From the NCBI GenBank assembly GCA_014650475.1, contig BMVA01000003.1:310001-374000 (forward strand): a DNA stretch of 64,000 bases, given 5' to 3'. A program made the translations under genes and the position numbers. Shown here piece by piece: positions 3,488 through 62,013 of this stretch (its first letter is position 1; each line of letters starts with the position of its first letter). The DNA is from Streptomyces albogriseolus (GTDB lineage: Bacteria; Actinomycetota; Actinomycetes; Streptomycetales; Streptomycetaceae). The notes under the pieces were generated by a model. The model was given only the letters and a program-made list of their open reading frames with translations. It made no database searches and was not told the origin of the DNA.

Positions 3488-3514
3488 CCCCGACCCTGAC
3501 CCTGGGCACCTTGG

Positions 3515-3546
3515 TTCGACGTGTGTCAACATAGACGTATGTCGAA
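3515..3546. promoter_or_regulatory. Candidate ArsR operator (copy 2), overlapping the arsR start codon
   Basis: 32-bp palindrome with arms TTCGAC and GTCGAA, matching the copy at 2356-2387 in all conserved positions. It covers the ATG of arsR at 3539, and no ribosome binding site is present, so arsR is probably translated from a leaderless transcript and autorepressed by a protein sitting on its own start. Confidence 0.65.
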
Positions 3547-3904
3547 CGTCAAGGCGCTGCCGCTTCTGGAACCCGAGGGCCCCGACGCCGTGGCGCCGTG
3601 CTGCCCGCCGTTGAGTGAGCGCCCCTTCACCGCCGAGGAGGCCGAGCGGACGGCACGCATGTTCAAGGCGCTCGGGGACCCGGTACGACTGCGCCTCTTC
3701 TCGGCCGTCGCCTCCCACGAGGGCGGTGAGGCGTGCGTGTGCGACATCTCCGACGTCGGCGTCTCCCAGCCGACCGTCTCCCACCACCTCAAGAAGCTCA
3801 AGGAGGCCGGCCTGCTCACCTCCGAGCGGCGCGGCACCTGGGTCTACTACCGGGTCGAGCCGTCGGTGGTGGCCGCGATGGGACAACTGCTCGCCGTCCG
3901 GTAG
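3539..3904 (+). CDS. arsR: ArsR-family arsenite-responsive repressor
   Basis: 121-residue winged-helix repressor. The recognition helix is in VSQPTVSHHLKKLKEAGLL, followed by the beta-wing RRGTWVYYRV. Vicinal Cys21-Cys22 in the N-terminal arm plus Cys66/Cys68 in ACVCDI give the three-thiol arsenite site of the Corynebacterium-type ArsR. Arsenite binding releases the protein from DNA. The ATG at 3539 is preferred over an in-frame GTG at 3521 because residue 1 then lies on the family start; neither has a Shine-Dalgarno sequence. It lies 51 bases after the broken monooxygenase gene. Confidence 0.85.
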   Translation: MSNVKALPLLEPEGPDAVAPCCPPLSERPFTAEEAERTARMFKALGDPVRLRLFSAVASHEGGEACVCDISDVGVSQPTVSHHLKKLKEAGLLTSERRGTWVYYRVEPSVVAAMGQLLAVR

Positions 3905-3994
3905 CCCCGCTCGGCCACGCCCTTCCCGACCAACGCCCCTCATCGCCGCGTCCGCGCCCTCGCGACGGATCGCCCGCGGATCACCTCGTCACGG

Positions 3995-5059: not shown

Positions 5060-5192
5060 GCCGCCCGCACCGCCGCGCACGCGGTGCACCGGACGGTGCG
5101 GGCCGTGACCTCGCCGGGTCGTCCGGAGAGGGTCCCCTCACGCACGACGGCCGTGCCGGTCGTTCCCTGTGCGCGGCGGTCCAGGCGGTGCA

Positions 5193-6311
5193 TCAGCGGT
5201 CCCTGCCCTCAGTGCCCTCGGTGGTCAGGGCGGACGGGGCGAACTTCTTGCGCCAGGCCAGGGACACGTAGACCAGGCCGATCAGGACGGGCACCTCGAT
5301 GAGCGGTCCCACGACGCCGGAGAGGGCCTGGCCGGAGCTGACGCCGAAGGTGGCGATGGCGACGGCGATGGCCAGCTCGAAGTTGTTGCCGGCGGCCGTG
5401 AAGGCGAGGGTGGCCGTGCGGTCGTAGGCGAGGCCGATCGCCTTGCCCAGCAGGAAGGTGCCGGCCCACATCACGGCGAAGTACACCAGCAGCGGCAGGG
5501 CGATGCGGGCGACGTCGAGAGGCTGGGAGGTGATGGTCCTGCCCTGCAGGGCGAAGAGGATGACGATCGTGAAGAGGAGGCCGTAGAGCGCCCAGGGGCC
5601 GATCTTCGGCAGGAAGCCGGACTCGTACCTCTCGCGGCCGAGCTTCTTCTCGCCGACGCGGCGGGTGAGGAAGCCGGCCAGCAGCGGGACGCCGAGGAAG
5701 ATGACGACGTTCACCGCGATCTTCCCCATGGAGATGTCGAGGTGTTCGCCGTCGCCCAGGCCGAGCCAGCCCGGCAGCAGGTCGAGGTAGAACCAGCCGA
5801 GCAGGCCGAACGCCAGGACCTGGAAGACCGAGTTCAGCGCGACCAGGACGGCCGCCGCCTCGCGGTCGCCGCAGGCGAGGTCGTTCCAGATGATGACCAT
5901 GGCGATGCAGCGGGCCAGGCCGACGATGATCAGACCGGTGCGGTACTCGGGCAGGTCGGGCAGGAAGATCCACGCGAGCGCGAACATCACCGCCGGGCCG
6001 ACGACCCAGTTGATCACCAGCGACGACGCCATGAGCCTGCGGTCGCCGGTGACGGCGTCGAGCCTGTCGTAGCGGACCTTGGCGAGCACCGGATACATCA
6101 TGATCAGCAGGCCGATGGCGATCGGCAGCGAGATGCCGCCGACCTCGACCTTGGCGAGGGTGTCGTTCAGGCCCGGGACGGCCCGGCCCAGACCGAGGCC
6201 CACCGCCATGGCGATGAGGATCCAGACGGCGAGGAAGCGGTCGAGCGTCGACAGCTTCGCGACGACGGAGGACTCCTCGGCGGTCGTCGCGGGTGCGTCG
6301 GTGCGGGTCAC
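5193..6311 (-). CDS. acr3: ACR3-family arsenite efflux permease
   Basis: 372-residue inner-membrane carrier with about ten hydrophobic spans. The family-defining Cys is in LARCIAMVIIWNDLACGD (fourth span) and the essential Glu in FTAAGNNFELAIAVAIATFG (ninth span). ACR3 exports arsenite using the proton-motive force. GTG start at 6311 overlaps the arsR2 stop by four bases (GTGA), so expression is translationally coupled to the repressor gene. This is the arsenite exit route for the arsenite made by ArsC and ArsI. Confidence 0.92.
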   Translation of the reverse strand: MTRTDAPATTAEESSVVAKLSTLDRFLAVWILIAMAVGLGLGRAVPGLNDTLAKVEVGGISLPIAIGLLIMMYPVLAKVRYDRLDAVTGDRRLMASSLVINWVVGPAVMFALAWIFLPDLPEYRTGLIIVGLARCIAMVIIWNDLACGDREAAAVLVALNSVFQVLAFGLLGWFYLDLLPGWLGLGDGEHLDISMGKIAVNVVIFLGVPLLAGFLTRRVGEKKLGRERYESGFLPKIGPWALYGLLFTIVILFALQGRTITSQPLDVARIALPLLVYFAVMWAGTFLLGKAIGLAYDRTATLAFTAAGNNFELAIAVAIATFGVSSGQALSGVVGPLIEVPVLIGLVYVSLAWRKKFAPSALTTEGTEGRDR

Positions 6312-6616
6312 GGACAGGCCCTCTTGTTCTCGGCGGCGGTGCGGGCGGACTCGGCCAGCTCGGCGAACTGGCCGGCGAGCGAGGCGATGACGTCCGGACG
6401 GAGCTTGTAGTACGTGTAGCGGCCGCACGGCTCCGTATCGACGACACCGGCCTCGCGCAGCACCCTCAGGTGGTTGGAGAGGTTGGTCTGCCGGGCGCCC
6501 GTCTCCTCCACGAGGTGGGTGGTGCACAGCGTCTCTTGGGCGAGCAGAGTCACGATCCGCAGCCTGAGCGGGTCCGCCAGAACCCGGATCAGGTCAGTGT
6601 CGACTGACATCATCAT
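6308..6616 (-). CDS. arsR: Second ArsR-family repressor
   Basis: 102-residue winged-helix protein. Helix-turn-helix around RQTNLSNHLRVLREAGVV, wing around GRYTYYKL. Cysteines are at 31, 64 and 101, a different layout from the first ArsR, so its metalloid site evolved separately. The gene begins with three Met codons (6616, 6613, 6610) and no Shine-Dalgarno, suggesting a leaderless message. It heads arsR2-acr3 and is divergent from arsC, so one operator in between may control both. Confidence 0.85.
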   Translation of the reverse strand: MMMSVDTDLIRVLADPLRLRIVTLLAQETLCTTHLVEETGARQTNLSNHLRVLREAGVVDTEPCGRYTYYKLRPDVIASLAGQFAELAESARTAAENKRACP

Positions 6617-6708
6617 GTGCTGATACTGTCACATCAGTGGTGGCTGACACCACCAGGTGCTGACCTCATGAGCGCCCGATGCCGTCGCGAGACAAGAGAG
6701 ACCTCCTG
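6617..6708. promoter_or_regulatory. Divergent arsR2/arsC control region
   Basis: 92 bases between the two genes. It holds the inverted repeat CTGAT-N8-ATCAG (6620-6637) and an overlapping TGTCA-N13-TGACA (6627-6649), the best candidates for the ArsR2 operator. The sequence differs from the 32-bp palindromes at 2356 and 3515, so the two ArsR proteins probably have separate targets. Confidence 0.5.
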
Positions 6709-7116
6709 ATGTCCGACAAGCCCTCCGTGCTGTTCGTCTGTGTCCACAACGCCGGTCGCTCGCAGATGGCCGCCGCGTGGCTGACCCACCTGGCCGGGGA
6801 CCGCGTCGAGGTCCGTTCCGCCGGCTCGAACCCGGGCGACAGCGTCAACCCCGCCGCCGTCGAGGCGATGCGCGAGGTCGGCATCGACATCTCCGCCGAG
6901 GTGCCGAAGATGCTGACCGTGGACGCGGTCAAGGAGTCCGACGTCTGCATCACCATGGGCTGCGGCGACACCTGTCCGGTCTTCCCGGGCAAGCGGTACC
7001 TGGACTGGCAGCTGGACGACCCGGCCGGCCAGGGCGTGGAGGCCGTCCGCCCGATCCGCGACCAGATCAAGGTGCTGGTGGAGGGGCTGATCGAGGAGAT
7101 CGCGCCGGAGGTCTGA
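6709..7116 (+). CDS. arsC: Thioredoxin-linked arsenate reductase
   Basis: 135-residue low-molecular-weight phosphatase-fold reductase. The P-loop CVHNAGRS has catalytic Cys11, the redox relay is Cys80/Cys85/Cys89 in CITMGCGDTCPVFPGK, and the Asp-Pro acid lies near 104. It reduces arsenate to arsenite, which ACR3 exports, and is recycled by thioredoxin. The start at 6709 has GAGAGA upstream and fits family length; an ATG at 6679 would add ten residues. The last codons of the gene are tandemly repeated downstream. Confidence 0.93.
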   Translation: MSDKPSVLFVCVHNAGRSQMAAAWLTHLAGDRVEVRSAGSNPGDSVNPAAVEAMREVGIDISAEVPKMLTVDAVKESDVCITMGCGDTCPVFPGKRYLDWQLDDPAGQGVEAVRPIRDQIKVLVEGLIEEIAPEV

Positions 7117-7159
7117 AGGAGATCGCGCCGGAGGTCTGAGCGAGGAGATCGCGCCGGAG
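7095..7159 (+). repeat. Tandem 22-23-bp repeat of the arsC 3' end
   Basis: The unit GGAGATCGCGCCGGAGGTCT plus GA, which encodes the end and stop of arsC, occurs at 7095-7116, again at 7118-7139, and as a 16-base partial copy at 7144-7159. This looks like slipped-strand duplication. Confidence 0.85.
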
Positions 7160-7167
7160 CCGCGGTC

Positions 7168-7272
7168 ATGAGCGCCCCGACGGACGTCCGCGACGTCATC
7201 GTCATCGGCTCGGGCGCAGCGGGCCGCGCCCGCGGCAGGACGAACGGCCAAACGGTCGTTGCTGCGTCGTAG
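7168..7272 (+). pseudogene. Thioredoxin reductase (ArsT/TrxB) 5' remnant
   Basis: A 34-codon frame starting MSAPTDVRDVIVIGSGAAG. This is the N-terminus and FAD-binding GxGxxG of a thioredoxin reductase, the gene usually found after arsC in Streptomyces ars clusters. Homology stops after the Gly motif and the frame closes at TAG 7270-7272; about 90% of the enzyme is missing. The deletion endpoint near 7225 marks a recombination junction with the toxin-antitoxin region. The 120 bases after it (7273-7392) hold nothing I recognise. Confidence 0.65.
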
Positions 7273-7392
7273 AACCTGTGCGGGACAACCGGGCACGCGC
7301 CGTGGCAGCCCTGCACCGCCTGCCCGTCCCGAAGGACTCCGGACGCACCCCGCTCATCGCGCATCTCGACAAGAGGGAACACAACTCCCGCG

Positions 7393-7836
7393 TCAGAGCG
7401 GAAGATCGTCCGGGAGTACCCGGAACACCTTGTGACGGCCCAACGGCCGTACGGCCCGGAAATCCCGTCGGTCGAGAGTGAGGATCGCGTCCGTGTCGTA
7501 GTCGGCCGCAAGCGCCACGTTCACCGCGTCGGCGAGGTCCAGGTCGAGCCCGCCGTAGCGGACCCGGACGGACTGGGCGGCACCCAAGTGGTCCTCCGTG
7601 ATCTCCGGCACCACGACACGACCCCGGCTCATCCAGCGCCGCAGGTCGTCGACCGCGCTCAGAGCGGCCTCGCGCCCCAACTCACGCGTGGCCACGTGAT
7701 CAAGTTCCGCCAGGAGGAGCGGGGACATGATCAGAAGACCGGCCGCCATGATCGACTCGTTCGCGCCCCTGTGCTCCGGGTGGGTCGCGTCAAGAGCGGC
7801 CAGAAGGCCGGATGTATCAGCGATGACGATGATCAC
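7393..7836 (-). CDS. PIN-domain toxin of a type II toxin-antitoxin pair
   Basis: 147-residue VapC-type ribonuclease. The four acid clusters of the PIN fold are present: IADTSGLLAAL with Asp near 7, the LLLAELDHV helix with Glu/Asp, DLDLADAVNVALAA, and ILTLDRRDF. The start overlaps the upstream antitoxin stop by four bases (ATGA), the standard coupling of such pairs. The target RNA cannot be told from sequence. Confidence 0.85.
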   Translation of the reverse strand: MIIVIADTSGLLAALDATHPEHRGANESIMAAGLLIMSPLLLAELDHVATRELGREAALSAVDDLRRWMSRGRVVVPEITEDHLGAAQSVRVRYGGLDLDLADAVNVALAADYDTDAILTLDRRDFRAVRPLGRHKVFRVLPDDLPL

Positions 7837-8093
7837 TGAGCAGTTCCGGAGTCCGTCTCGCGGCGGACCGCGTCAGCGACCGTGTCACGGACCTCAGCCT
7901 TGGACGGCGTACGCCCTGGCCCCTCGAACGTCCGCGAGAACAACGGTTCGTCCCAGACCCGGTTCGCCATCGCCGCGAGGTGAATCCCCTGACGGATGAT
8001 TTCGGCCTCGCTTATGCCCCGCCTCTTGGACGCCTCCTTGATGATCGCCAGGTCCTCGGGATCGGCGTAGACGTTCGTGCGCTTCATGGACAT
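7833..8093 (-). CDS. Ribbon-helix-helix antitoxin partner of the PIN toxin
   Basis: 86-residue protein beginning MSMKRTNVYADPEDL. The beta-strand followed by two helices (IIKEASKRRGISEAEIIRQGI) is a CopG/Arc ribbon-helix-helix DNA-binding domain. The C-terminal 40 residues would wrap the toxin. It should autorepress the operon; two CATGTACCAA direct repeats lie right at its start. ATG 8087 is an alternative start. Confidence 0.8.
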   Translation of the reverse strand: MSMKRTNVYADPEDLAIIKEASKRRGISEAEIIRQGIHLAAMANRVWDEPLFSRTFEGPGRTPSKAEVRDTVADAVRRETDSGTAQ

Positions 8094-8118
8094 GTACCAA
8101 GCGTAGCCCATGTACCAA
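8091..8118. repeat. CATGTACCAA direct repeats at the antitoxin promoter
   Basis: Identical 10-mers at 8091-8100 and 8109-8118, 18 bases apart, overlapping the antitoxin start. Two helical-face-shifted half sites of this kind are plausible ribbon-helix-helix operator repeats. The rest of 8119-8332 shows no recognisable gene. Confidence 0.5.
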
Positions 8119-8332
8119 ACTGATGTATGTGGGCCGGTCGAGAGAGACATACGGTGCCTCCTTCGCCTCGAGAAGGAACTCCGCCGTGGCGGCACGATCA
8201 CCCCACCACTGGCCGCGGTCACGCCACGGGCTGCTCAACGTGGGGCTACGGCGGTGATTTCCGGTCGGCTGTCTCGTCTCTGTATGGGGCGGGTGCTTTC
8301 GCACCGGCTCGACCACCCACAGAAGGAGTGCC

Positions 8333-9151
8333 ATGCTGCGACAGGTCGCGGAGGGTGTGCTGATCCACCGGAGCGAGTTGCTCGAGAACAACGCCGTCGT
8401 GGTGCAGGGCCCGACCGGGGCACTGCTCATCGACCCCGGGCTCACCGTTGCCGAGATGACCTGCCTCGCGGACGACCTTCGCCGGCTGAACCAGAGCGTG
8501 GAGGCGGGCTTCGCGACGCATCGTGACTGGGACCACGTGCTCTGGCACCCCGAGTACGGCGACGCGCCCCGGTACGGCACCGACCGCTGCGCGGCGCATG
8601 TGCGAGAGGTGCGGGCGGCTCCCGACTGGAAGGCGCGCGTCGCTGAGGGGTTGCCGCCGGAGATCGCCCAGGAGACACCGCTGGACCTGTACGGCCTCAT
8701 CACCGGTCTGCCGGCCGGGGCGGCACAGATTCCCTGGAACGGCCCTTGTGCCCAGATCATCGAGCACCCGGCGCATACGCCGGGGCATGCGGCGGTGCTG
8801 ATCGCAGAGCGCGGGGTCCTCGTCGCCGGCGACATGCTGTCCGACGTCCTCGTCCCGAACTTCGACGAGTTGAACGACACCAATGACCCTCTCGGGGAGT
8901 ACCTCACCGGTCTGCGTCTGCTCGAGGATGTCGCAAGCGATGTCGCCGTCATGGTCCCCGGCCACGGATCGGTCTGCGGAGCCGATGAGATACGCGCACG
9001 GATCGAGCAGGATCGGGCGTACGTCCTGACCGTGCGTGCGGGCCGTGTCCCCAGCGACCCGCGAGTCGGCCCCACGGCCAAGCCCGGCTGGGAGTGGACC
9101 ACCGACATATCCGTCGCCCACGTGCAGCGCCTCGCTGAAAGAGCCGGATGA
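8333..9151 (+). CDS. Metallo-beta-lactamase-fold hydrolase with atypical metal motif
   Basis: 272-residue protein of the MBL superfamily. Visible are the first metal box THRDWDH near residue 63, the HTPGHAAV His box near 148, AGDML with the bridging Asp near 163, and VPGHGS with the last His. The canonical HxHxDH has become HxDxDH, His2 replaced by Asp. Glyoxalase-II-like and RNase-Z-like relatives hydrolyse esters, thioesters or phosphodiesters; the substrate here is unknown. AGAAGGAG precedes the ATG. Monocistronic by spacing. Confidence 0.75.
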   Translation: MLRQVAEGVLIHRSELLENNAVVVQGPTGALLIDPGLTVAEMTCLADDLRRLNQSVEAGFATHRDWDHVLWHPEYGDAPRYGTDRCAAHVREVRAAPDWKARVAEGLPPEIAQETPLDLYGLITGLPAGAAQIPWNGPCAQIIEHPAHTPGHAAVLIAERGVLVAGDMLSDVLVPNFDELNDTNDPLGEYLTGLRLLEDVASDVAVMVPGHGSVCGADEIRARIEQDRAYVLTVRAGRVPSDPRVGPTAKPGWEWTTDISVAHVQRLAERAG

Positions 9152-50024: not shown

Positions 50025-52253
50025 ATGGCCGACGAAATGGTTCTCAGCGCCCAGAAGTTCGTCAACCGCGTCTACGGCAGCCGCACAGGAATGACGGTCG
50101 AGGAGAACGGGCGAACCGGGTGGCCGGTCATGTACGCCCTGACCCGCGCTCTCCAGTGGGAACTTGGCATCGACACGCTGTCGAACAACTTCGGCCCCGG
50201 CACGATCTCCGCACTGCAGTCGAGACACCCGGTCATCAACGCCTCCACGGCGCCGTCCGCCGACTTCATCCGCATCATCCAGTCCGGTCTGTACTGCAAG
50301 GGGTACGACGGCGGCGGCATCGACGGGAAGTACAGCGACCGAGTCGCCTCGTCCGTCGCGCGGCTCAAGGCGGACATGGGCGTGGACTCGGTGTACCCCG
50401 GCTCCGACCTGGTGCCGAAGGTCTTCAAGGGCCTGCTGAACATGGACGCCTACGTCACCGTCAACGGCGGCTCGGGCACCATTCGTTCGATCCAGCAGTG
50501 GCTCAACGGGCACTACATCCACCGCAGGGACTTCTTCGTCATCCCCTGCGACGGCCACCACTCCCGTGACGTCGCCAAGTCCCTGCTCTTCGCCATCCAG
50601 TACGAGTTGGGGATGGCCGACGGCACCGCCAACGGCAACTTCGGCCCCGGCACCCAGGCCGGCCTGAGGAACCACACCGTCGCCGTCGGCACCGTCGGCA
50701 CCTGGGCGAAGCTGTTCACGGCCGCGATGGTCCTCAACGCACGCGACGTCCCCTTCGGGAACTTCACCGGTGACGTCAAAGCCGGTGTGGAGGCGTTCCA
50801 GGCCTTCGTGAAGCTGCCCGTCAGCGGCATCGGCGACTTCCAGACCTGGTCGTCGCTGCTGGTCTCCTACGGCGACCAGTCCCGCAGGGGTGAGGCATGC
50901 GACGGCGTCACGCTGATCACCCCCGCACGCGCGCAGACACTGAAGTCCGAGGGCATCAAGTACGTCGGACGGTACCTGTACAACCCGGATCCCACCCCCA
51001 GCGGCGACCTGAGGCACAAGGAGATCCAGCCGGGCGAGCTGAAGACGATCGCCGACAACGGGCTGCGCTGCTACCCGATCTTCCAGACCTTCGCCGACTC
51101 CGCCGACTACTTCCGGCCGGCGCAGGGGACGGCCGACGCCAGGCTGGCCGTGGCCCAGGCGGTGAAGCACGGCTTCAAGCACGGTGCGCGGATCTTCTTC
51201 GCCGTCGACTACGACACCCAGGACTACGAGGTCACCGAATGGGTCATCCCCTACTTCCGGGCCATCGCCCAGGAGATGGCCCGCCTCGACGACGCGTACC
51301 GCATCGGCGTGTACGGGACGCGCAACGTGTGCTCCCGCGTCTCGGCTGCCGGATACGCCTCGGCGTCGTTCGTGTCCGACATGTCGTCCGGCTACTCCGG
51401 CAACCTCGGCTACACCATGCCCGCCAACTGGGCGTACGACCAGATCGTCACCCGCACCGTGGGCTCCGGTGACGGTCTGATCGAGATCGACCACAACATC
51501 GCGTCAGGCCGGGACACCGGGGAGAACAGCTTCGACCCGATCGCCCCCGATACGCTCCTCGACAGCGAGCTCCCGACGGAGGCGCACGAGGCACTGCTGC
51601 TGGAGATCCGGCAGACGATGAAGGACATCGGCATCGGGGAGACCTCGGCCAACACCAAGTGGTCGATCAAGGAGAGCCTCGACCTGGTGCTGCACAACGA
51701 TGCGCTGATCACCGGCATGGCACGGGCTCTGAGGATGCGCAAGTCCTTGATCCAGGTGCCCGTCTTCTGGGAGACCCGCCACTACGACACGTCCCTCGAC
51801 TACCTGGGCGACATCGGCGTCCGCGTCTACCACTCGGGCGTGCAGACCGTCCCGCCGCTCGCGGACAAGTTCATCAAGCGGGACGCCAGCACCGGACCCG
51901 GCCAGATCTTCGCGGCCACCGCCATCAACGCCCGCAATCAGGCCATCAGGGACGGTGTCCTCAGCGGAGCCACACGCGACCCCGGCAGCGACGCCGACGT
52001 GTGGGCGATCTGGCAGCAGCTGAACGAGGACCCCGAGTTCAACATCCGGCAGGTCGGCTACGTGCACCGCTACCACGCGGTCAAGTACGGCGTGCCCCGC
52101 CCCAGCCTGACCTCCTCGCCCCAGAACGTCTTCGACTACCTCAAGTACTACCAGGGCGACACCCCGAACGCCGAGACGGAGGCGGAGAAGCGGCTCCAGG
52201 TGTACGGGACGTTCGAGAAGTACAACGCGCTCGCCCGGGGCGACGTCTGGTGA
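50025..52253 (+). CDS. Multidomain glycoside-hydrolase-like (Rv2525c/DUF1906-type) protein
   Basis: 742 residues, AAGGAGA before the ATG. Two peptidoglycan-binding-like helical repeats (about 35-135 and 150-285, each with a NNFGPGT/GNFGPGT turn). Then a TIM-barrel-like domain (about 290-500): IKYVGRYLYNPDPTPSG, ARIFFAVDYDTQDYE with paired acids, YRIGVYGTRNV and LIEIDHNIASG. The C-terminal 235 residues are unassigned (DVWAIWQQLNEDPEFNIRQV and GYVHRYHAVKYGVPRPS). Relatives with this barrel act on cell walls, yet no signal peptide or lipobox is present. First gene of a coupled operon. Confidence 0.7.
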   Translation: MADEMVLSAQKFVNRVYGSRTGMTVEENGRTGWPVMYALTRALQWELGIDTLSNNFGPGTISALQSRHPVINASTAPSADFIRIIQSGLYCKGYDGGGIDGKYSDRVASSVARLKADMGVDSVYPGSDLVPKVFKGLLNMDAYVTVNGGSGTIRSIQQWLNGHYIHRRDFFVIPCDGHHSRDVAKSLLFAIQYELGMADGTANGNFGPGTQAGLRNHTVAVGTVGTWAKLFTAAMVLNARDVPFGNFTGDVKAGVEAFQAFVKLPVSGIGDFQTWSSLLVSYGDQSRRGEACDGVTLITPARAQTLKSEGIKYVGRYLYNPDPTPSGDLRHKEIQPGELKTIADNGLRCYPIFQTFADSADYFRPAQGTADARLAVAQAVKHGFKHGARIFFAVDYDTQDYEVTEWVIPYFRAIAQEMARLDDAYRIGVYGTRNVCSRVSAAGYASASFVSDMSSGYSGNLGYTMPANWAYDQIVTRTVGSGDGLIEIDHNIASGRDTGENSFDPIAPDTLLDSELPTEAHEALLLEIRQTMKDIGIGETSANTKWSIKESLDLVLHNDALITGMARALRMRKSLIQVPVFWETRHYDTSLDYLGDIGVRVYHSGVQTVPPLADKFIKRDASTGPGQIFAATAINARNQAIRDGVLSGATRDPGSDADVWAIWQQLNEDPEFNIRQVGYVHRYHAVKYGVPRPSLTSSPQNVFDYLKYYQGDTPNAETEAEKRLQVYGTFEKYNALARGDVW

Positions 52254-53590: not shown

Positions 53591-54934
53591 TCACACCGGA
53601 GGCTGCGCCGGCGCGGGCCCCAGGGTCGTCGTGCCCGGGGCCGTGCGGTGGCCCAGGCCGGTGCGGTACGCGTCCAGCGCCGCCTCCACGCGGCCCGTGC
53701 GGCGGAGGAGGTCGCCGAGGAGGCGGCACAGGTCGGCCAGGTCGCCCGCCGCGCCCGCGCGCTCCAGCAGGCTGAGCGCGCGCACGTAGTGCTCCTCCGC
53801 CTGCTCCGTGGCGCGGGCGTCCTCGGCGATGATGCCGAGCAGCCGGTGCGCCGCCGCCGCGTGCACCGCGCCCCGCTCGGGCGAGAGCCCGCCCAGCACG
53901 TCCCGCAGCAGCTCCGCCGCCTCCTCGGACCGACCGCGCCGGTGCAGCACGTCGGCGAGCTCGACGGTGAGCTGGCTGCTGTACAGGGTCGCGCGGGTCG
54001 CGGACAGCATGTGCAGCGCCTCCCGCATCTCCGCCTCGGCCCGCTCCAGTTCGCCGTTCTGCGCGTACACGTACCCGCGCATCCAGTGGCAGTTGGCCAG
54101 CTCGGTGCGCAGATGCAGCCCCCGGTACAGCTCGGCCGCCTTCGCCAGCGACGCGTCCGCCTCCGCCAGACGGCCCTCGGCGAGCAGGGTGCGGGCCACC
54201 GACCGGTGCATGCGCGCCACCAGCGCCGGGTCGCCGGACTGCGGGGCGAGCGCCAGCGCGAACTCCGCGGCCTGCGCGGCCCGCGCGTGCGCGCCCATGT
54301 CCATGTACGGCCCGATGACGCTGGCGTACAGCAGGAGCAGCGCGTCCGGGTCGTGCAGGCCGCCCCGGTTCAGCTCGTCGATCGTGCTCTCCAGCAGATA
54401 CACCGCGTACCGCAGCTCGCCCGCGAGGTAGTGCGCGACGGCCCGGCCGCGCAGCGCCGGCACCCGCGCGGGCAGCGGCGCGTCCGCGAGCCGCGCCTCC
54501 GCCTCCTCGAAGAACCGCCGCCCGTCCGCGAGCTCGCCGGTGTCCAGCGCGCACTCCCCGAGCCCGAGCAGCGCGGCGGCCTGCTCCTCCGGCAGCTCCT
54601 GCGCCTCCGCCTCGGCCAGCAGCGCCGCGTACTGCTCCACCGCCGACTCCGCCTCGCCGACGGCGAGGGCGCGCTGCGCCTCGGTCAGCCGCAGCCGCAG
54701 TTCGGTCACCCGGCGCGCCGAGCGCCCGGTCGCCAGTTCGTCGAACTCGACTCCGAGCCGCTCGGAGAGATGCCGCAGCGCCTCGTCGGAGGGCCGCACC
54801 CGGCCGGCCTCCAGGGTGGAGATGTAGGCCGGGGTGTACACCGGCTCCGCCAGCTGTCTCTGTGTCAGTCCGCGCGCCACGCGCAGCTGCTGCACCCGCC
54901 GTCCGATCGTGCCCGGCTCGTCCCGCTCCCCCAT
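53591..54934 (-). CDS. XRE-TPR transcriptional regulator, RRNPP-like
   Basis: 447 residues. XRE helix-turn-helix at about 9-62 (GRRVQQLRVARGLTQRQLAE, YTPAYISTLEAGRVRPS), then about nine helical TPR-type repeats to 430 (for example AEEHYVRALSLLERAGAAGD and RGYVYAQNGELERAEAEMRE). This layout is that of peptide-sensing RRNPP regulators (Rgg/PlcR/NprR), although many Streptomyces XRE-TPR proteins have no known ligand. It is divergent from a 56-residue secreted-peptide gene 97 bases away. It probably binds the TTAAAC repeats between them. Confidence 0.8.
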   Translation of the reverse strand: MGERDEPGTIGRRVQQLRVARGLTQRQLAEPVYTPAYISTLEAGRVRPSDEALRHLSERLGVEFDELATGRSARRVTELRLRLTEAQRALAVGEAESAVEQYAALLAEAEAQELPEEQAAALLGLGECALDTGELADGRRFFEEAEARLADAPLPARVPALRGRAVAHYLAGELRYAVYLLESTIDELNRGGLHDPDALLLLYASVIGPYMDMGAHARAAQAAEFALALAPQSGDPALVARMHRSVARTLLAEGRLAEADASLAKAAELYRGLHLRTELANCHWMRGYVYAQNGELERAEAEMREALHMLSATRATLYSSQLTVELADVLHRRGRSEEAAELLRDVLGGLSPERGAVHAAAAHRLLGIIAEDARATEQAEEHYVRALSLLERAGAAGDLADLCRLLGDLLRRTGRVEAALDAYRTGLGHRTAPGTTTLGPAPAQPPV

Positions 54935-55031: not shown

Positions 55032-55202
55032 GTGCTGCAACGCACCCGCCCCACCGAGCGTTACGCCCGTGGCTTCATCGCGGCTCTCGCCGCGGTCGCG
55101 GCGCTGGTCCTGGCGGCGAACGCGGGCCCGGCCAAGGCCGTCGGCCCGGACGCCGACCACGGGACCACCGCGCCGGTGGAGGTGGAGGCCGCGGAGCGGT
55201 AG
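55032..55202 (+). CDS. Small secreted peptide precursor
   Basis: 56 residues from GTG 55032. Basic N-terminus (MLQRTRPTERYARG), hydrophobic core FIAALAAVAALVLAAN, cleavage after AKA near 36, mature acidic tail VGPDADHGTTAPVEVEAAER of 20 residues. Secreted, short, and divergent from an XRE-TPR regulator: the layout of a pheromone precursor. No Cys or lanthipeptide features. Start has no strong Shine-Dalgarno. Confidence 0.6.
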   Translation: MLQRTRPTERYARGFIAALAAVAALVLAANAGPAKAVGPDADHGTTAPVEVEAAER

Positions 55203-55223
55203 GACGGCACCCGCCGGAGCACC

Positions 55224-56582
55224 TCAGCCGGGCAAGGCCCGGCGCAGCGCCTCGTCCAGGCGTCGCGCCAGCTCCTCGTCGTCGGCCGAGCCGCCCTCGA
55301 CGAGCGGCCCGAGCTGGGTGATGAGGGTCTGCGTGAACGCACCGTAGAGCGGCGTCCTCGGACGGTGCACGGCCCGCTCCAGCGCCTCCTTCAGCTTTTC
55401 GTCCGGGAAACCGGGACGTCCGTCGTCGCCGCGCGGCACCTCGTCGGCCTCCCCTGTCGGGGAGGGGGCGGGCGTGGCGGAGATCTCGGCGGGGCACCGC
55501 GCCGAACGGCCGAAGGCCGACGCACGGGTCGCCGCGAACCCGGCCTCCAGCAGGCAGCGTTCACTCTGCCGCCCGGTGAGGAACCGGATCAGCTCGGTCG
55601 CCTTCCGCGCCCGCTCCGACGTCGTGGTCACCGCCAGGTTCTGCCCGCCGAGCACCGCCCGCCCGGGCAGCGACGCCACCCCGAGCCGGTCGCCGAACAC
55701 CCGGTACAGCGTGGGGTAGGCGGACGGCCAGGCGCGCAGGAAGGCCGTACGCCCCGCGGCGAACTCGCTGGTCGACTCCGTCTCGTCCTGCTTGCCCGCG
55801 CTCGGGGAGATGTACGCCTGGTCGACGCGGCGGGTGAGTTCCTTCACGCCCCGTCTCAGCTCCTCCACGTCCCCCGTGTAACGGCCGTCCTCGTCCACCA
55901 GCCTCAGGCCGGGCACCGCCGTGGCGAACGCCTCCACCGCGTTGACCGTGCGGCCCTCGTACGGGGCGAGCTGGGTGGTCCAGCCGTTGACGTAGTCGGC
56001 GGCGTCGAGCTTCTTGCCCAGGGCGGCGATGCGCCCGCGCAGCTGCTCCCAGGTGAAGCCCTCCGGGACGTACGGCTTCTCGACACCGGCCTTCCGCAAC
56101 AGGTCGATCCGGTAGTACAGCAGGCCGACGTCGCTGTTGAACGGCACCGCGTAGACCTTCCCGTCCCACCGGGCCGTCCCGGCGACCGGATCGATCACGT
56201 CCGCGTCCACGAGGTCGTCCGGCAGCGCCCGCACCAGCCCTGCCTCCGCGAACTCCGGCACCCAGGTCACGTCCAGGTTCACCACGTCGTACCGGGCGCT
56301 GCCGGACTGGAGGGCGCCCAGCAGCTGGCTGCGCTGCTCGTCCGCGCTGCCCGGCAGCTCCACCAGCCGCGCCTGGTACTCCGAGCCCGCCTCCTGCTGC
56401 GCACGGTTCCACGCGTCGATGAGCCGCTGCCGCACGCCGTTGCTGCCGGTGACGTCCCGGCCGCTGGCCACGACGATCGTGCCGGGCCGCTCCTCGTCGG
56501 CCTGGTCGGGCGTCCCGTCCCCGCCGCCCGTGCAGGCGGCGAGCAGCAGCAGCGCGAGCAGCGCGGTGAGCCGTCGCGGCAT
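55224..56582 (-). CDS. Extracellular solute-binding lipoprotein of the caspase operon
   Basis: 452 residues. Lipobox LLLLAAC (Cys17). Type 1 family solute-binding fold: IVVASGRDVTGSNGVRQRLI, YDVVNLDVTWVPEFAEAG, YAVPFNSDVGLLYYRIDLLR, SEFAAGRTAFLRAWPSAYP, NLAVTTTSERARKATELIRF. The ATG shares one base with the caspase stop (TGATG). No transporter genes accompany it; its partner is the caspase protein, whose ectodomain also resembles a binding protein. Confidence 0.82.
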   Translation of the reverse strand: MPRRLTALLALLLLAACTGGGDGTPDQADEERPGTIVVASGRDVTGSNGVRQRLIDAWNRAQQEAGSEYQARLVELPGSADEQRSQLLGALQSGSARYDVVNLDVTWVPEFAEAGLVRALPDDLVDADVIDPVAGTARWDGKVYAVPFNSDVGLLYYRIDLLRKAGVEKPYVPEGFTWEQLRGRIAALGKKLDAADYVNGWTTQLAPYEGRTVNAVEAFATAVPGLRLVDEDGRYTGDVEELRRGVKELTRRVDQAYISPSAGKQDETESTSEFAAGRTAFLRAWPSAYPTLYRVFGDRLGVASLPGRAVLGGQNLAVTTTSERARKATELIRFLTGRQSERCLLEAGFAATRASAFGRSARCPAEISATPAPSPTGEADEVPRGDDGRPGFPDEKLKEALERAVHRPRTPLYGAFTQTLITQLGPLVEGGSADDEELARRLDEALRRALPG

Positions 56583-59194
56583 CAGTCGTCCCCCGTTCCG
56601 ATGCGGGCGATCTCGTCGTGCAGGGCGGCGCCCACGTCGTCCCCCGCGTCCAGACAGCGCCCGCCGCTCACGTCGGCGATCCGGCGGTCCGGACGGCCCT
56701 CGTCACAGCCCCCGCTTCCCAGGACGGCGACGGTCACCGGCACCCGGCTCGCCTCGGCCCGGTCCAGCACCTCCCTCAGCCGTCCACCGCTCAGGCGGTC
56801 ACCGTGCCGGCCGTCGGTGAGGTGCACGATCAGCTGGGGCCGCCCGTCGTCCCCCCGGTCCTCCATCTCGTCGAACGCCGCGAGCAGCGCCGCGTGCGGG
56901 TCGGCCGAGGCGTCGCGCACCCGCGCCCGCTCGTCGACGGCCCTCTCGGCGTCCTCCCGCGCATGCCTGCCGAACCCCAGCAGCGTCTCGTACGGGCCGT
57001 CACCGGTGTCCGCGACCGACCAGGCGCCGTACTCGTCGTCGGCGCCCAGCCCGCCCAGCGTCTGCCGCAGCAGACCGGGGCCGCCGCTCGGCCCCTGCCA
57101 CACGCCGGCCATGGAACCGGAGCTGTCCAGCAGGAACAGCACCCGGCCGGGACCGCCGTACGCCTGGTAGGCGCTCAGGGCCTGCTCCATCTCGTTCCGC
57201 CCGGCCGACTCGTCGAGGGGGCTCGGCGCGTACTTCACGGCGTCGACGTCCTGGTCCTCGTCGAGCGGCTCCCGCGTGCCGGGGTCGCGGAAGCCGAACC
57301 GGGCGAACACCTCGCGGCCGCCGTCACCGGCCAGCCAGTCGTGGAAGGAGGCCACCGACGCGTCCCGGGCGACGGCGTCGACGTCGCCGTCGTCCCAGCG
57401 CACCCGCACGAACACCGGGTCCATCCCGGGCACGTCGGCGGGGTACAGGGCCGTGCGCGGGGCGCGGGTGATGTCCTCGCAGTCGACCCCGCTGATGAGC
57501 AGGAACTCCGGTACGAGGGCGGCGGTGCGGTCGTCCACGGCGTCGTCGTCGGGCAGGGCGCACAGCAGGTCGCCGGCCGTGGGGGAGGGCGGTCCCGGCT
57601 GCGCGACCATGGCCTCCCCGCGGGCGACGGCCGACGCGTCCCCGTACAGGCCGACGGTGGCGAGCAGCCCCGAGTCGGTGAACTCGGGGTCGGGGCGGCG
57701 CACGGCCGCGTCCTCGGCGCGCACGGTCAGAGCGTCGATCATCGTGGTCAGGGGCCGTCCGGTGACCTCGTTCAGCGGCTCGGGGGCGAGATGGTCGGGC
57801 ACGGCGAGCACGACGGGGGAGTAGGCGAGGGGCGACTCCGCGGGCTCCAGCTCCGCGACGGCGTCCGTGTCCTGCTCCTCCAGCACCCGGTCGACCTCGG
57901 CACGGGAGCCGGGTATCCACACGTCGGGCTGCGGGCCGATGTCGCGCTGCGGGTTGACCTCGTCGCCCTCGGGCTCCTTCCAGTCGTCCGTGTGCCGGCG
58001 CAGCGCGTCGACCACGTCGGAGGACCCGGCGCTGTGGACGGTGATGCCGGTGTGCCGGCAGCCCGCGTCCGTGGTGTTGGCGTCGGAGGTGAGATAGGCG
58101 TCGGCGGCCGTGCGGAAGGCCTCCTCCATGTCCGGGTCGGTCAGCACGCGCAGTTCGAGCGGCGGGTCGCAGTGGGTGTCGTCCCCGCCGGCCAGGCCCA
58201 GCGGCCCGTACAGACCCACGCCGAGCATGCCGAGGGCGAGCAGCACCGGCAGGGCGAGCCGGAACAGGATGCGGCGGGACGGCCGCGTCCCCCCGCCCGC
58301 GCCGGACCGGGAGTGCCGGCGCCGCCGCCGGGCACGGGACCACGCCGCCGCCAGGGCGCGCGGGCGCCGCCACAACGCCGCCGTCCACGCCGGCAGCCGA
58401 CGGCGCGGGGGACGAGGGGGACGCGGGGCCGTGCCGGACGGGCCGGTCCCGTCCGGTGACAGGAGCGGGACCTGCGGGCCTTCCTTCCCCAGCCTCACGG
58501 CGTCGGCGCCCGCGTCGGCGCGCAGCTGCGGCTCCCAGGGTTCGTTGCGCAGGGTGCGGCGCTTCTGCTCGGCCATGCGCTCCCGCAGCCGGGCGGCGAG
58601 CCGGGAGACGGTCGTGCCGTCCTCCTCGCCGAGCAGCTCCGCCAGGTTCTCCGTGTACGGCGTGGGGGTGCCCGGATCGCCCGCGTCGATGCGGTGGTTG
58701 GCCTGCACGCTCATCAGCAGCACGACGCGCCGCTTGTCCTCGAAGTGCTCCCACACCCGGGCCGCGTTGCCCGCGAAGCAGCAGTCGAGGACCACCACGA
58801 CGCGGTCCGCGCGGCTCGTGACCAGCACCGTCCCCATCAGGTCGCTGAACGACACGGCGCCGTTGAACACCGTGTGCTCGCCGGCGAACACCTGGGCGTC
58901 ACGCAGCTGCAGATACAGCTCGTCGCCCCCGCTGGGGATCGCGCCGTGTCCAGCGAAGTAGACCAGCAGCAGCCCGCGGGCCTCCCTGGCGACCCGTTGC
59001 AGCTCCCGTGCCGCCTCGGCGAAGTCGGGCGACTGCAGGGACACGATCTCCTCGTCGGCGAACACCCCCGCACGCACCAGCGCCTCGTGCAGCACGGGCA
59101 CGTTGTGCTCGACGGCCGGCAGCTTGCCCGGCACCCCGTGCGGCCGTTTCGTGAAGCGGTAGTCGGACACACCGATCAGCAGCGCCCGGTCCAT
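56582..59194 (-). CDS. Membrane-anchored caspase-like protease with binding-protein and VWA ectodomains
   Basis: 870 residues from ATG 59194 behind GGGGGAG (a GTG at 59221 is possible). Cytoplasmic C14 caspase-like domain about 1-230: His83 in YFAGHGAI and Cys139 in LDCCFAGNAA form the dyad. Disordered Arg/Pro linker, one span about 309-335, then outside a solute-binding-protein-like region (about 345-655) and a VWA domain (about 680-865) with MIDAS FLLDSSGSM. An outside signal could be read by the ectodomains and trigger proteolysis inside. Co-transcribed with EACC1-like and TPR genes. Confidence 0.85.
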   Translation of the reverse strand: MDRALLIGVSDYRFTKRPHGVPGKLPAVEHNVPVLHEALVRAGVFADEEIVSLQSPDFAEAARELQRVAREARGLLLVYFAGHGAIPSGGDELYLQLRDAQVFAGEHTVFNGAVSFSDLMGTVLVTSRADRVVVVLDCCFAGNAARVWEHFEDKRRVVLLMSVQANHRIDAGDPGTPTPYTENLAELLGEEDGTTVSRLAARLRERMAEQKRRTLRNEPWEPQLRADAGADAVRLGKEGPQVPLLSPDGTGPSGTAPRPPRPPRRRLPAWTAALWRRPRALAAAWSRARRRRRHSRSGAGGGTRPSRRILFRLALPVLLALGMLGVGLYGPLGLAGGDDTHCDPPLELRVLTDPDMEEAFRTAADAYLTSDANTTDAGCRHTGITVHSAGSSDVVDALRRHTDDWKEPEGDEVNPQRDIGPQPDVWIPGSRAEVDRVLEEQDTDAVAELEPAESPLAYSPVVLAVPDHLAPEPLNEVTGRPLTTMIDALTVRAEDAAVRRPDPEFTDSGLLATVGLYGDASAVARGEAMVAQPGPPSPTAGDLLCALPDDDAVDDRTAALVPEFLLISGVDCEDITRAPRTALYPADVPGMDPVFVRVRWDDGDVDAVARDASVASFHDWLAGDGGREVFARFGFRDPGTREPLDEDQDVDAVKYAPSPLDESAGRNEMEQALSAYQAYGGPGRVLFLLDSSGSMAGVWQGPSGGPGLLRQTLGGLGADDEYGAWSVADTGDGPYETLLGFGRHAREDAERAVDERARVRDASADPHAALLAAFDEMEDRGDDGRPQLIVHLTDGRHGDRLSGGRLREVLDRAEASRVPVTVAVLGSGGCDEGRPDRRIADVSGGRCLDAGDDVGAALHDEIARIGTGDD

Positions 59195-59225
59195 CGGCTC
59201 CCCCGCGTCCTCAGGCTGCACCGGC

Positions 59226-59588
59226 CTACCTGTCGTCGCGGTTCACCGGTTCGACTCGGCCCTGCGGCGGTTCGCCGTTCTCGACCTCGCGGCGGTTGTC
59301 CCGCCAGGCCACCACACCGCGCTTGACCCGCTCCAGCAGTTCCTGGAACACCACGGTGGCGCCCGCCGACGTGATGGCGATGACGATCTCCTGACTCGTC
59401 CCCATCGGGGCGCCGTCGTGATCGGCGGCCGGCCGTTCGCGGATCCGCAGCTTCCCGTCCCGCAACAGGTCGTCCAGCGGTTTCTCCCGCTCCAGCCAGT
59501 TGCGCAGGGCGGTGACGTCGCCCTCCGTCGCGCTCCCGTCCAGCCGTACGCGGACGTCCTGGTCGGCCACTCCATCCCCCTCAGCCAT
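59226..59588 (-). CDS. EACC1-like effector-associated protein
   Basis: 120 residues: RVRLDGSATEGDVTALRNWL, a short loop, then a helix EIVIAITSAGATVVFQELLE that may insert in the membrane, and a basic tail KRGVVAWRDNRREVE. This matches the EACC1 component described in actinobacterial caspase/NTPase conflict systems, as I recall it. It sits directly before the caspase gene. Its role there is proposed to be signal transfer. Confidence 0.7.
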   Translation of the reverse strand: MAEGDGVADQDVRVRLDGSATEGDVTALRNWLEREKPLDDLLRDGKLRIRERPAADHDGAPMGTSQEIVIAITSAGATVVFQELLERVKRGVVAWRDNRREVENGEPPQGRVEPVNRDDR

Positions 59589-59597
59589 AACTCCCCA

Positions 59598-60737
59598 TCA
59601 TGGCACCGCGGTCGCCCCCTGGGGAGGGTCCGTACGCAGGTGCCCTGCGGGCATCGCCCCACGCCCCTGCACCTCCCGCAACCGGCGCCGCACATGCTCC
59701 ACGGCCCCCTCCCGGCGCCCCGGCACCCGGCTCCTCAACTCCACGAGTCGCACACCCAGTTCACCCACCCGCACCGGGTCGTCGATCCGGCCCCACTGAT
59801 GGTGGGCGCGGTCCACGGCCGCCTCCACGGCGGGCGCGTCGGCCGGCTGCCCGGCGGCCAGCCGGGTGTCCGCCAGCGCCATCCACGCGCGGCAGCTGCG
59901 CGCCGCGTCGCCCGCCAGCATCGCCAGGTCCGCGCGGACCTCCGTCCAGTGCAGCGCCTCCTCCGACACCGGGCCGTGCGCCAGCCCCGCCGCCTGCTCC
60001 AGCCGCGCGGCCAGCGCGTCCGCCTCCGCGTGCCGCCCCGCGCGCACGGCCGCCGTGACCGCCGCGTGCGGGTCGCCCGGCAGCGGCCCGCGCTGCGCCA
60101 GCACCAGGTCGGCGCCCGCGCCCTCCGGCGCGATCCGGGCCAGCGTCCGCTGGTGCAGCTCCTCGTCCGGCAGCCGCCGCCCGCTGCGCAACAGCGTCGC
60201 CAGCGCCTTCATGTACGCCGGTGCCGCCACCCCACGCCGTGCCGGCGGGGGCGCGACGCGACCGTAGACGGCGGCGTCACGGCCGCAGTCCAGCGGGAAC
60301 GGACGGCCCGGCGCGGGCGGCGCGCACAGCGCCCGCCAGGTGTCCGCGTCGGCGCGCAGATCGAGGAACAGCGTCGTCGCGCCGGCCGGGCGCAGCCGCA
60401 GCTCGTCCCGGAACCAGTGCCAGGGCAGCGCCGTGTACCGCACGGTCGCCGGGGTGGTGCGGGCCAGCGCCAGGTGCGGCAGCCGCTGTCTGCGGTCCAG
60501 CCGCAGCTCCCCCGCCACGTACACGGTCAGCGGGCCGGGCGCCGCGGCCGCCGCGCGGAGCCGGGTCAGCACCGCCTGCGGCTCCAGCGGGTCGGCCAGC
60601 TCCACGACGTTCGCGGTGTCCGCGCCGGACAGCACCGACGGGGGCACCGCCGCGAGCACGGGGAGCACGGACGCCGCGTCCACCAGCCGTCCACGGCCCA
60701 GCGGCGACGCCGCCAGCAGCAGCACGGTCCCGGGCAT
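59598..60737 (-). CDS. TPR-type protein of the caspase operon (CATRA-like)
   Basis: 379 residues, ATG behind GGGGGAGG. N-terminal Rossmann-like segment (TVLLLAASPLGRGRLVDAAS, PLTVYVAGELRLD, LPHLALARTTPATVRYTALP) that recalls a caspase-type fold without the catalytic dyad, then TPR-like helices (about 180-340: DPHAAVTAAVRAGRHAEADA, AGDAARSCRAWMALADTRLA). Resembles the CATRA proteins named for caspase/TPR-associated conflict systems. First gene of the operon, nine bases before the EACC1-like gene. Confidence 0.6.
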   Translation of the reverse strand: MPGTVLLLAASPLGRGRLVDAASVLPVLAAVPPSVLSGADTANVVELADPLEPQAVLTRLRAAAAAPGPLTVYVAGELRLDRRQRLPHLALARTTPATVRYTALPWHWFRDELRLRPAGATTLFLDLRADADTWRALCAPPAPGRPFPLDCGRDAAVYGRVAPPPARRGVAAPAYMKALATLLRSGRRLPDEELHQRTLARIAPEGAGADLVLAQRGPLPGDPHAAVTAAVRAGRHAEADALAARLEQAAGLAHGPVSEEALHWTEVRADLAMLAGDAARSCRAWMALADTRLAAGQPADAPAVEAAVDRAHHQWGRIDDPVRVGELGVRLVELRSRVPGRREGAVEHVRRRLREVQGRGAMPAGHLRTDPPQGATAVP

Positions 60738-60801
60738 GGTCCCCTCCCCCTGTCGATCACCCACGGCAGCACCGTAACCGCTGCGGTCGCAAACGGGGGC
60801 G

Positions 60802-62013
60802 TCACAGCGGTGAACGTCCCCCTTCGCGACGTTCGACCCCCGTGCCCCGGCCGCGCCGCACCGCGAACACGGTGGTGTCGTCCACCAGATGACCCCGGCA
60901 ATGCCGCAGCGTCCCGTCCCGTACGACCCGCGCCAGCCGGCGGGGGGCCGTCAGCCGCGGGTCGGCGGCCACGGCCCGCCGCACCTCCTCGGCGACCTTG
61001 AAGAAGCGGCCCTCCCGGTCCCGGGCCTCCGTCACCCCGTCCGTCACCACCAGCAGCGTCTCGTCGGCGTCCAGGCGCACCCGGCGCACCGGGGGGCCCT
61101 CGGGCGCCAGGTCGCGGTAGCCGAGCGGCAGCCCTCCGGCCACCGGCAGGCGCCGGACCCCCGACGGGCCCACCGCCAGCGGGGGTTCATGGCCGAAGAC
61201 GACGGTGTCGACGGCGTCGTCCTCGTCCGCGGGGAAGGCGAGCAGCACGGCCGTGGCGAACCGGTCGCCGTCCGCGCGGCCGAGGGCGGTCGTGTACGCG
61301 CGGTGCCGCACCATCCGCGCCTCCAGCCGGTCGGCGACCACCGCCAGGTCCGCCTCGTGGAATCCCGCCTCGCGGAACGTGCCGAGCAGCACCGCCGCCG
61401 TCTCCACCGCGCCCAGCCCCTTGCCCTGCACGTCCCCGACGAGGACACGGGTGCCGTGCGGGCCGGGCTGGATGTCGTAGAAGTCGCCGCCGACCCGGGC
61501 CCGGGCGTCGGCGGTGAGATACACGCCCGCGTGTTCCAGGCCGCCCCAGCCGGGCGGCAGCGGCCGCAGCACGGTGCGCCGCACCGTGTCCGTCACGTCC
61601 CGCAGGTGCAGCGCCCGCCGCTCGCCGCGCACCCGCACCGCGCACGCCAGCGTGGCGAGGACGCCGCCGAGGGCGACCAGGATGAAGTCGGGCAGGCCCG
61701 CCTGGAACTGGTGCGGCCAGGCGCTGTCGACGACCGTGTACGTGCCCATGGACAGCACCGCGAACACCGCCGTGCCCCACACCCCGCACAGCGCGGCCGC
61801 GATGCCCGGCACCAGCACGATCCAGGAGATGATCCGGAACTCGCCGGTGGTGTTGTAGTCGGTCACCGCGATCGCGACGAGCAGCAGCAGGGGCGGCACC
61901 CAGGCGACGCTGCGGCCCCGTACCCGCAGCAGTATCTGCCGCTCCACGACGTCGTCCGGGCCGGCCGTCGGGTACGGCTCGGGCAGGGCGTGTCCTGTGG
62001 TGGCCGGACTCAC
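60802..62013 (-). CDS. Membrane SpoIIE/PP2C protein phosphatase, intact
   Basis: 403 residues from GTG 62013. Four to five spans (about 35-135), then a PP2C domain with full acid set: GGDFYDIQP, VGDVQGKGLG, VVTDGVTEARD and DDTTVFAVRR. Contrast the degenerate enzyme at 21855-23936. Should dephosphorylate an anti-sigma antagonist protein. Sixty-five bases upstream of the caspase operon on the same strand and possibly co-expressed. Confidence 0.88.
   Translation of the reverse strand: MSPATTGHALPEPYPTAGPDDVVERQILLRVRGRSVAWVPPLLLLVAIAVTDYNTTGEFRIISWIVLVPGIAAALCGVWGTAVFAVLSMGTYTVVDSAWPHQFQAGLPDFILVALGGVLATLACAVRVRGERRALHLRDVTDTVRRTVLRPLPPGWGGLEHAGVYLTADARARVGGDFYDIQPGPHGTRVLVGDVQGKGLGAVETAAVLLGTFREAGFHEADLAVVADRLEARMVRHRAYTTALGRADGDRFATAVLLAFPADEDDAVDTVVFGHEPPLAVGPSGVRRLPVAGGLPLGYRDLAPEGPPVRRVRLDADETLLVVTDGVTEARDREGRFFKVAEEVRRAVAADPRLTAPRRLARVVRDGTLRHCRGHLVDDTTVFAVRRGRGTGVERREGGRSPL

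Follow-up and report, generated by a model that had tools for sequence, protein, structure and literature searches.

The 64,000-nucleotide stretch of Streptomyces albogriseolus DNA analysed here (the window: GCA_014650475.1, contig BMVA01000003.1, positions 310,001-374,000) holds a cassette of three genes, encoding an EACC1-like protein, a caspase joined by one predicted transmembrane (TM) helix to a solute-binding-protein (SBP) and VWA ectodomain (P0001), and an SBP lipoprotein. These genes form a conserved unit, which is a three-gene variant of the EACC1-caspase conflict system described by Kaur et al. (2020; PMC7159879). The best reading of the cassette, held tentatively and with somewhat less than even confidence, is that of an outside-in, ligand-gated caspase receptor. 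An earlier note on this DNA had reported four co-oriented open reading frames (ORFs), all of which are present on the minus strand (Table 1); the fourth, P0004, is a neighbour outside the cassette.

The single P0001 polypeptide matches Pfam Peptidase_C14 (7e-9), SBP_bac_11 (6e-10) and, weakly and below the cut-off, VWA (0.007). The caspase fold proposed in the earlier note is strongly predicted by structure modelling, and the catalytic dyad named there, His83 and Cys139, is conserved in all 41 aligned sequences (P0001 and 40 of 47 full-length gene calls). The NCBIfam model NF047832 (caspase, EACC1-associated type) scores 114.8 bits (E 4e-33) and misses its curated cut-off of 140; P0001 is therefore related to the curated subfamily, yet not filed under it. 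PADLOC returned one weak "caspase" match (E 2e-4). The caspase domain leads into a linker that is long and variable among relatives and Arg-rich in the window protein; the predicted local distance difference test (pLDDT) falls below 50 at residues 239-280, 293-313 and 325-339. The single membrane span claimed for P0001 is also predicted here, with a Kyte-Doolittle (KD) mean of 2.13 from residue 309 and a net charge of +10 before and -3 after it, and a positive-inside charge pattern is present in 40 of the 41 aligned sequences. Six ectodomain cysteines are conserved in all 41. The invariant cysteines and the charge pattern fit the suggestion that the sensing half faces outside, and the ectodomain is predicted to hold two binding-type folds.

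The neighbourhood of this protein was surveyed in 121 loci (L001-L068, L078-L130). The first 68 came from a scan of genome contigs with six peptide patterns, hence no census, and whole-genome stretches were added; genes were called by a codon-bias script and then labelled. A strong ectodomain (≥150 bits) is present in 77 loci; among the other 44, five (L043, L045, L047, L048, L054) end after the caspase part, and the rest are weak relatives, a remnant or cassette-less sites. Five of the 77 are second copies (L089, L112, L121, L128, L129), leaving 72 distinct loci, and L112, L121 and L129 are identical in the ectodomain. The caspase lies in the same called gene or run as the ectodomain in 75 of 77 loci and, by tblastn, just upstream in L050 and L052. 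EACC1 is the gene immediately before the caspase gene in 72 loci and is fused to it in the gene call of L055; in the remaining four it is seen as two tblastn pieces (L031), further upstream (L050, L052) or by Pfam (L127, 30.8 bits, above the cut-off). The lipoprotein gene lies directly downstream of the caspase gene in all 74 loci in which its position can be tested (L032, L041 and L089 end there), and the gene ends often overlap. In the window, the GTG start of the caspase gene at 59221 sits 4 nt past the EACC1 stop, a gap often found in homologues, and the lipoprotein start overlaps the caspase-gene stop. P0004, by contrast, is labelled anywhere in 34 of the 77 loci, adjoining EACC1 in 29, and is unseen in 43, although some flanks are short and tblastn pieces occur in two (L018, L055). 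In 19 of 20 further fetched loci, EACC1, ectodomain/caspase and lipoprotein are labelled in order without P0004; in the twentieth, L127, EACC1 was recognised by Pfam. The conserved unit is EACC1, caspase-SBP-VWA and lipoprotein: in the proposed four-gene unit, EACC1 and the lipoprotein do keep company with the caspase, and P0004 does not. A four-gene operon that includes P0004 was rejected on this survey and on genome co-occurrence. One locus, L090, holds a broken remnant of the whole cassette, with EACC1/caspase, ectodomain and lipoprotein fragments in order.

The window EACC1-like protein scores 20.2 bits against Pfam EACC1 (cut-off 23.6), and the model, at E≤0.1, picks up 21 of the 26 sequences aligned (best 1.1e-11). 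A moderately hydrophobic Gly/Ala stretch is seen (best 17-residue KD mean 1.09-2.09 across 26 sequences). By homology, the 5' gene of the window probably carries the EACC1 domain expected of an EACC1-caspase system.

The third protein combines a lipobox-bearing signal with an SBP domain, as expected of an SBP lipoprotein (SBP_bac_1/8). It matches Pfam SBP_bac_8 (7e-27, 95 bits, cut-off 27), its Cys17 is conserved in at least 90% of 26 sequences, and the lipobox pattern is present in 19 of 26 gene calls, the pattern of the remaining seven being unexamined. Of its four best solved relatives, the top one, 7cae (1e-22), is named only as a solute-binding protein, and the others (E 1.5e-21 to 8.8e-21) are named as trehalose-binding LpqY. 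The likeness to LpqY is one of sequence kinship alone, and the cassette protein differs in being linked to a caspase gene; the guess at a sugar ligand is made because of this kinship. A direct profile link between lipoprotein and ectodomain was rejected, since the comparison yielded only a 31-column SBP-like stretch (probability 4.3). The ordinary SBP family and sugar-binding relatives would also suit a sugar importer's binding protein that merely travels beside the caspase and is unrelated to it. This is hardly credible, however, given the adjoining position in 74 of 74 loci with its frequent overlaps, and given genome co-occurrence: with the orthologue limit of E≤1e-60 placed at a gap in the list (1.1e-61 to 1.9e-53), lipoprotein orthologues occur in 24 of 101 genomes (G000-G100), the same 24 that hold the ectodomain, and in 0 of the other 77 (the identity of 21 negative genomes being taken from numbering). 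In 23 of these genomes the two genes sit side by side; in G022 they are on separate contigs. The tie between lipoprotein and membrane caspase suggested in the earlier note is thus borne out, and, since the lipoprotein is strictly linked to an apparently outward-facing ectodomain, the idea of an outside-in co-receptor is reasonable.

System 4 of Kaur et al. (2020; PMC7159879) consists of a 5' EACC1 gene and a 3' gene with an N-terminal caspase and a variable C-terminal part, for which up to 50 domain types are given; Table 1 of that paper places EACC1 systems in 671 organisms. The same paper gives EACC1 a conserved TM helix with small residues. It also mentions proteins in which an extracellular PBP domain comes after TM helices and, at another point, a vWA independent of MoxR. 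The cassette shares the 5' EACC1 gene, the N-terminal caspase in the 3' gene and the variable C-terminal domains, and differs in its strict third gene and in a combined SBP and VWA ectodomain with six invariant cysteines. No lipoprotein partner is mentioned in the main text, where the word "lipoprotein" turns up a single time, among the references; the layout may be given in the figures, source data or supplements. Of the system proposed in the earlier note, the receptor-like, conserved character stands, whereas its kind was already described in that paper and it does not comprise four genes. No paper of the literature library that was searched unites caspase, von Willebrand, solute-binding protein and Streptomyces.

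Related architectures occur elsewhere. In L131, a Streptomyces plasmid (NZ_CP108083.1), EACC1 (114 bits) is likewise followed by a caspase protein that ends in an SBP domain; this protein differs in being a caspase-nSTAND1-SBP_bac_3 fusion (nSTAND1 being a STAND NTPase) with no VWA match, and SBP ends on EACC1-linked caspases therefore recur. The ectodomain layout is shared with generic SBP_bac_11 and VWA proteins (five scanned with Pfam). None of the 11 weak-ectodomain loci L078-L088 carries a caspase or linked-lipoprotein label; five of these hold less than 4 kb, so that few neighbours are visible. L083 encodes a PNP_UDP_1 phosphorylase domain, one TM helix and the same SBP-VWA ectodomain, which would fit the idea of the ectodomain as an exchangeable sensor.

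The presence of two binding folds outside, an enzyme inside, one TM helix and a dedicated lipoprotein suggests that a signal is sensed outside the cell and that proteolysis takes place within it. The lipoprotein would bind a small extracellular ligand, probably a sugar, and would dock on, or compete at, the SBP-VWA ectodomain. The change would pass through the single TM helix and EACC1, and the cytoplasmic caspase would be clustered or released. It might then cut cytoplasmic targets, or its own linker, leading to death, dormancy or developmental change.

Several points weigh against this receptor reading, in which ligand class, docking, signal direction, activation, targets and outcome are all inferred. 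The C-terminal half looks extracytoplasmic on a topology deduced from sequence, and two of the 41 sequences have an odd number of ectodomain cysteines (9). The metal ion-dependent adhesion site (MIDAS) of the VWA domain, described as intact in the earlier note, is degenerate in the alignments: D690, S692, S694 and D794 are invariant in 41 sequences, but the Thr is Ala in 8 of 8 aligned family members, in contrast to the generic SBP-VWA relatives, which keep it in 8 of 8. Residue 31, aligned to a metacaspase Asp that we take to be part of the caspase S1 pocket, is Asn in 34 of 41 sequences and Asp in two; the pocket is seemingly altered, and so neither caspase specificity nor self-cleavage can be assumed. 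In the published model for EACC1 systems (Kaur et al., 2020; PMC7159879), moreover, the C-terminal part is no sensor; it acts as an effector once autoproteolysis has set it free. Applied here, EACC1 would sense membrane disturbance, the caspase would cut its own linker, and the SBP-VWA half thus released would serve as effector, perhaps together with the lipoprotein on the cell surface. The long, variable, in the window Arg-rich linker would suit such release, which is nevertheless unlikely, as the C-terminal half looks extracytoplasmic with binding-type folds and a strictly linked SBP lipoprotein is better explained by ligand sensing.

A further counterpoint to the receptor reading comes from the genomic surroundings, in which defence models are not clearly more frequent than in controls, distinct proteins being uncounted. 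The scan covered 122 genes within three of the cassette at 24 loci away from P0004; genes of <60 or >900 aa, cut genes and those holding N were dropped. At 1e-5, PADLOC gave 13 families and 14 member matches, among them a type IV restriction enzyme (3e-290), MzaB, mads_2 (two members) and PbeA. The first control, 59 window genes, gave nine families and 11 member matches; the second, 89 of 95 far-flank genes, gave 90 families, of which the 25 listed are all DNA methylases with three members each. Neither enrichment of defence genes near the cassette nor its absence is claimed. Phage defence or developmental death, the roles raised in the earlier note, may be considered for the cassette on no firmer footing than that of a suggestion.

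This result also bears on the possibility that the cassette is a nutrient or cell-wall sensor, in which a sugar or a piece of the envelope is recognised by the pair and the caspase, serving no defence role, modulates differentiation or the time at which hyphae die. The absence of a clear defence-gene excess, the kinship to LpqY and the occurrence of relatives in Streptomyces, a developing genus, are in its favour. It is nonetheless improbable, as the patchy distribution, the varied genomic positions and the decay seen in L090 are more like those of an accessory conflict module. Strong matches to the ectodomain model (E≤1e-60) occur in 62 of 295 Streptomyces genomes, and weak ones in 8 more; across the phylum (396 genomes), five genomes match strongly, all Streptomyces, and five outside the genus match weakly. 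Two fetched loci are of Actinacidiphila origin. The cassette appears to be movable and is found at many genomic places in some Streptomyces. Carriage on plasmids was not shown, as 0 of 20 plasmid records have a P0001 match covering 80%; lipoprotein-like sequence occurs in 533 plasmid records, all less than 60% identical.

The neighbour P0004, labelled a TPR/CATRA-like protein in the earlier note, is better described as a predicted, catalytically dead caspase domain followed by helical repeats, without a Pfam match. The His/Cys dyad is present in 0 of 30 sequences, so that P0004 would be a pseudocaspase, a caspase fold without the dyad. The EACC1-associated caspase model of NCBIfam matches it more weakly (31 bits), hhalign against the caspase profile is weak (probability 0.8, low diversity), and its profile finds no relative by sequence among solved structures (best E 0.19). 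Its kinship to caspases is drawn from the NCBIfam match and the predicted fold, not from hhalign. The fold without a dyad is shared with c-FLIPL and the pseudo-orthocaspases (PMC6426788). The replacing residues differ, being Gln/Glu and mostly Leu-His in P0004 as against Tyr and Ser.

P0004 is a resident neighbour, independent of the cassette. Its model A2 matches 204 of 295 Streptomyces genomes at E≤1e-6; by hand count, these are 42 of 62 with the cassette and 162 of 233 without it, and at E≤1e-100 the counts are 30 of 62 and 131 of 233. Its presence is thus unrelated to that of the active cassette caspase. Twenty P0004 loci without an adjoining cassette were fetched, 17 from genomes without a strong ectodomain and three (G095, G146, G151) from genomes with an ectodomain elsewhere; none of the 20 carries an EACC1, caspase or lipoprotein label. 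P0004 is followed there by an XRE gene in ten loci, with or without a small peptide ORF, is separated from it by other genes in seven (L100, L101, L105-L107, L109, L110), and no XRE gene is seen in three (L102-L104). At ten simple sites, P0004 stands without the block: synteny passes from the end of P0004 (window ~59,690) to ~55,130-55,206 (54,706 in L108), and the other genome has about 60-540 bases in place of the block (60 in L094). The slot after P0004 is variable. In L020, L023, L047 and L051, P0004 and EACC1 are separated by a gene in the opposite orientation (643-655 aa).

A midpoint-rooted tree of the ectodomain (65 distinct among 68 rows of sufficient length) requires seven changes of the P0004-side position, at least five of them forced by supported branches; this position is confined to one part of the tree, and the deep branches sit elsewhere. 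Distances of P0004 and of the cassette proteins correlate in the 30 P0004-side loci (r 0.69-0.88), and after arrival the cassette was therefore probably inherited together with P0004. That P0004 belongs to a four-gene system and, as a pseudocaspase, regulates the neighbouring caspase in the manner of c-FLIP is very unlikely in view of the genome counts, of its standing without EACC1 in 20 of the 20 loci fetched as cassette-less, and of the single tree part in which it adjoins the cassette.

Other genes flank these features. A SpoIIE-type phosphatase gene lies upstream of P0004, directly so in 15 of the 20 cassette-less loci. On the other side, a small ORF with a hydrophobic stretch, labelled in seven of the same 20 loci, is divergent from an XRE-TPR regulator, for which it could be a signal peptide. 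Further away, a larger protein combines a Rv2525c-like glycoside-hydrolase-type domain with a peptidoglycan-binding domain.

Table 1. Coordinates of the cassette, its domains and other features (window positions unless a locus is named).
Feature	Position	Strand	Remarks
EACC1-like protein, first cassette gene	59226-59588	-	120 aa; alternative start 59570; sub-cut-off Pfam EACC1 and homologues
Caspase-linker-TM-SBP-VWA protein P0001	56582-59221	-	879 aa from GTG 59221; 870 aa from ATG 59194
Cytoplasmic caspase domain, residues 1-240 (predicted)	58475-59194	-	His83 codon 58946-58948; Cys139 codon 58778-58780
Variable, low-confidence Arg/Pro-rich linker and single TM helix (~residues 309-334)	58193-58474	-	pLDDT, hydropathy, charge
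Putative extracytoplasmic SBP domain, residues 335-680	57155-58192	-	resembles sulfate-binding protein
VWA domain, residues 681-867	56594-57154	-	incomplete MIDAS: DxSxS and D kept, Thr lost
SBP lipoprotein, third cassette gene	55224-56582	-	452 aa; lipobox LAAC ending at Cys17; SBP_bac_8
P0004, neighbour outside cassette	59598-60737	-	ORF 59598-60764, ATG at 60737; predicted caspase-fold domain residues 1-220 and helical repeats
SpoIIE-type phosphatase	60802-62013	-	
Small ORF	55032-55202	+	56 aa
XRE-TPR regulator	53591-54934	-	
Glycoside-hydrolase-type protein	50025-52253	+	742 aa
L131, EACC1, caspase-nSTAND1-SBP_bac_3 and 305-residue protein without Pfam match	3507-8342	+	Pfam
L083, PNP_UDP_1-TM-ectodomain protein	3932-6559	-	
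L090, cassette remnant	4448-6494	+	

Most bacterial caspase systems are interpreted as intracellular sensors, and we know of no experimental test of the EACC1 class. In the cassette, a single membrane protein seems to have its sensor on one side of the membrane and its protease on the other, and is accompanied by a dedicated binding lipoprotein, which makes a concrete ligand search possible. The widespread pseudocaspase beside the cassette is a second testable lead. In its boldest and quite unlikely form, the cassette would be a bacterial "death receptor", in which an extracellular ligand delivered by the lipoprotein activates the caspase across the membrane, so that Streptomyces hyphae commit to regulated proteolysis on an outside signal, and the resident pseudocaspase, where it adjoins, tunes the threshold in the way that c-FLIP does for caspase-8. 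If outside-in signalling is true, animal death receptors would have a parallel in prokaryotes, the cassette would bear on the direction of signalling in the EACC1 class, and the question of what triggers bacterial caspases would become a binding assay.
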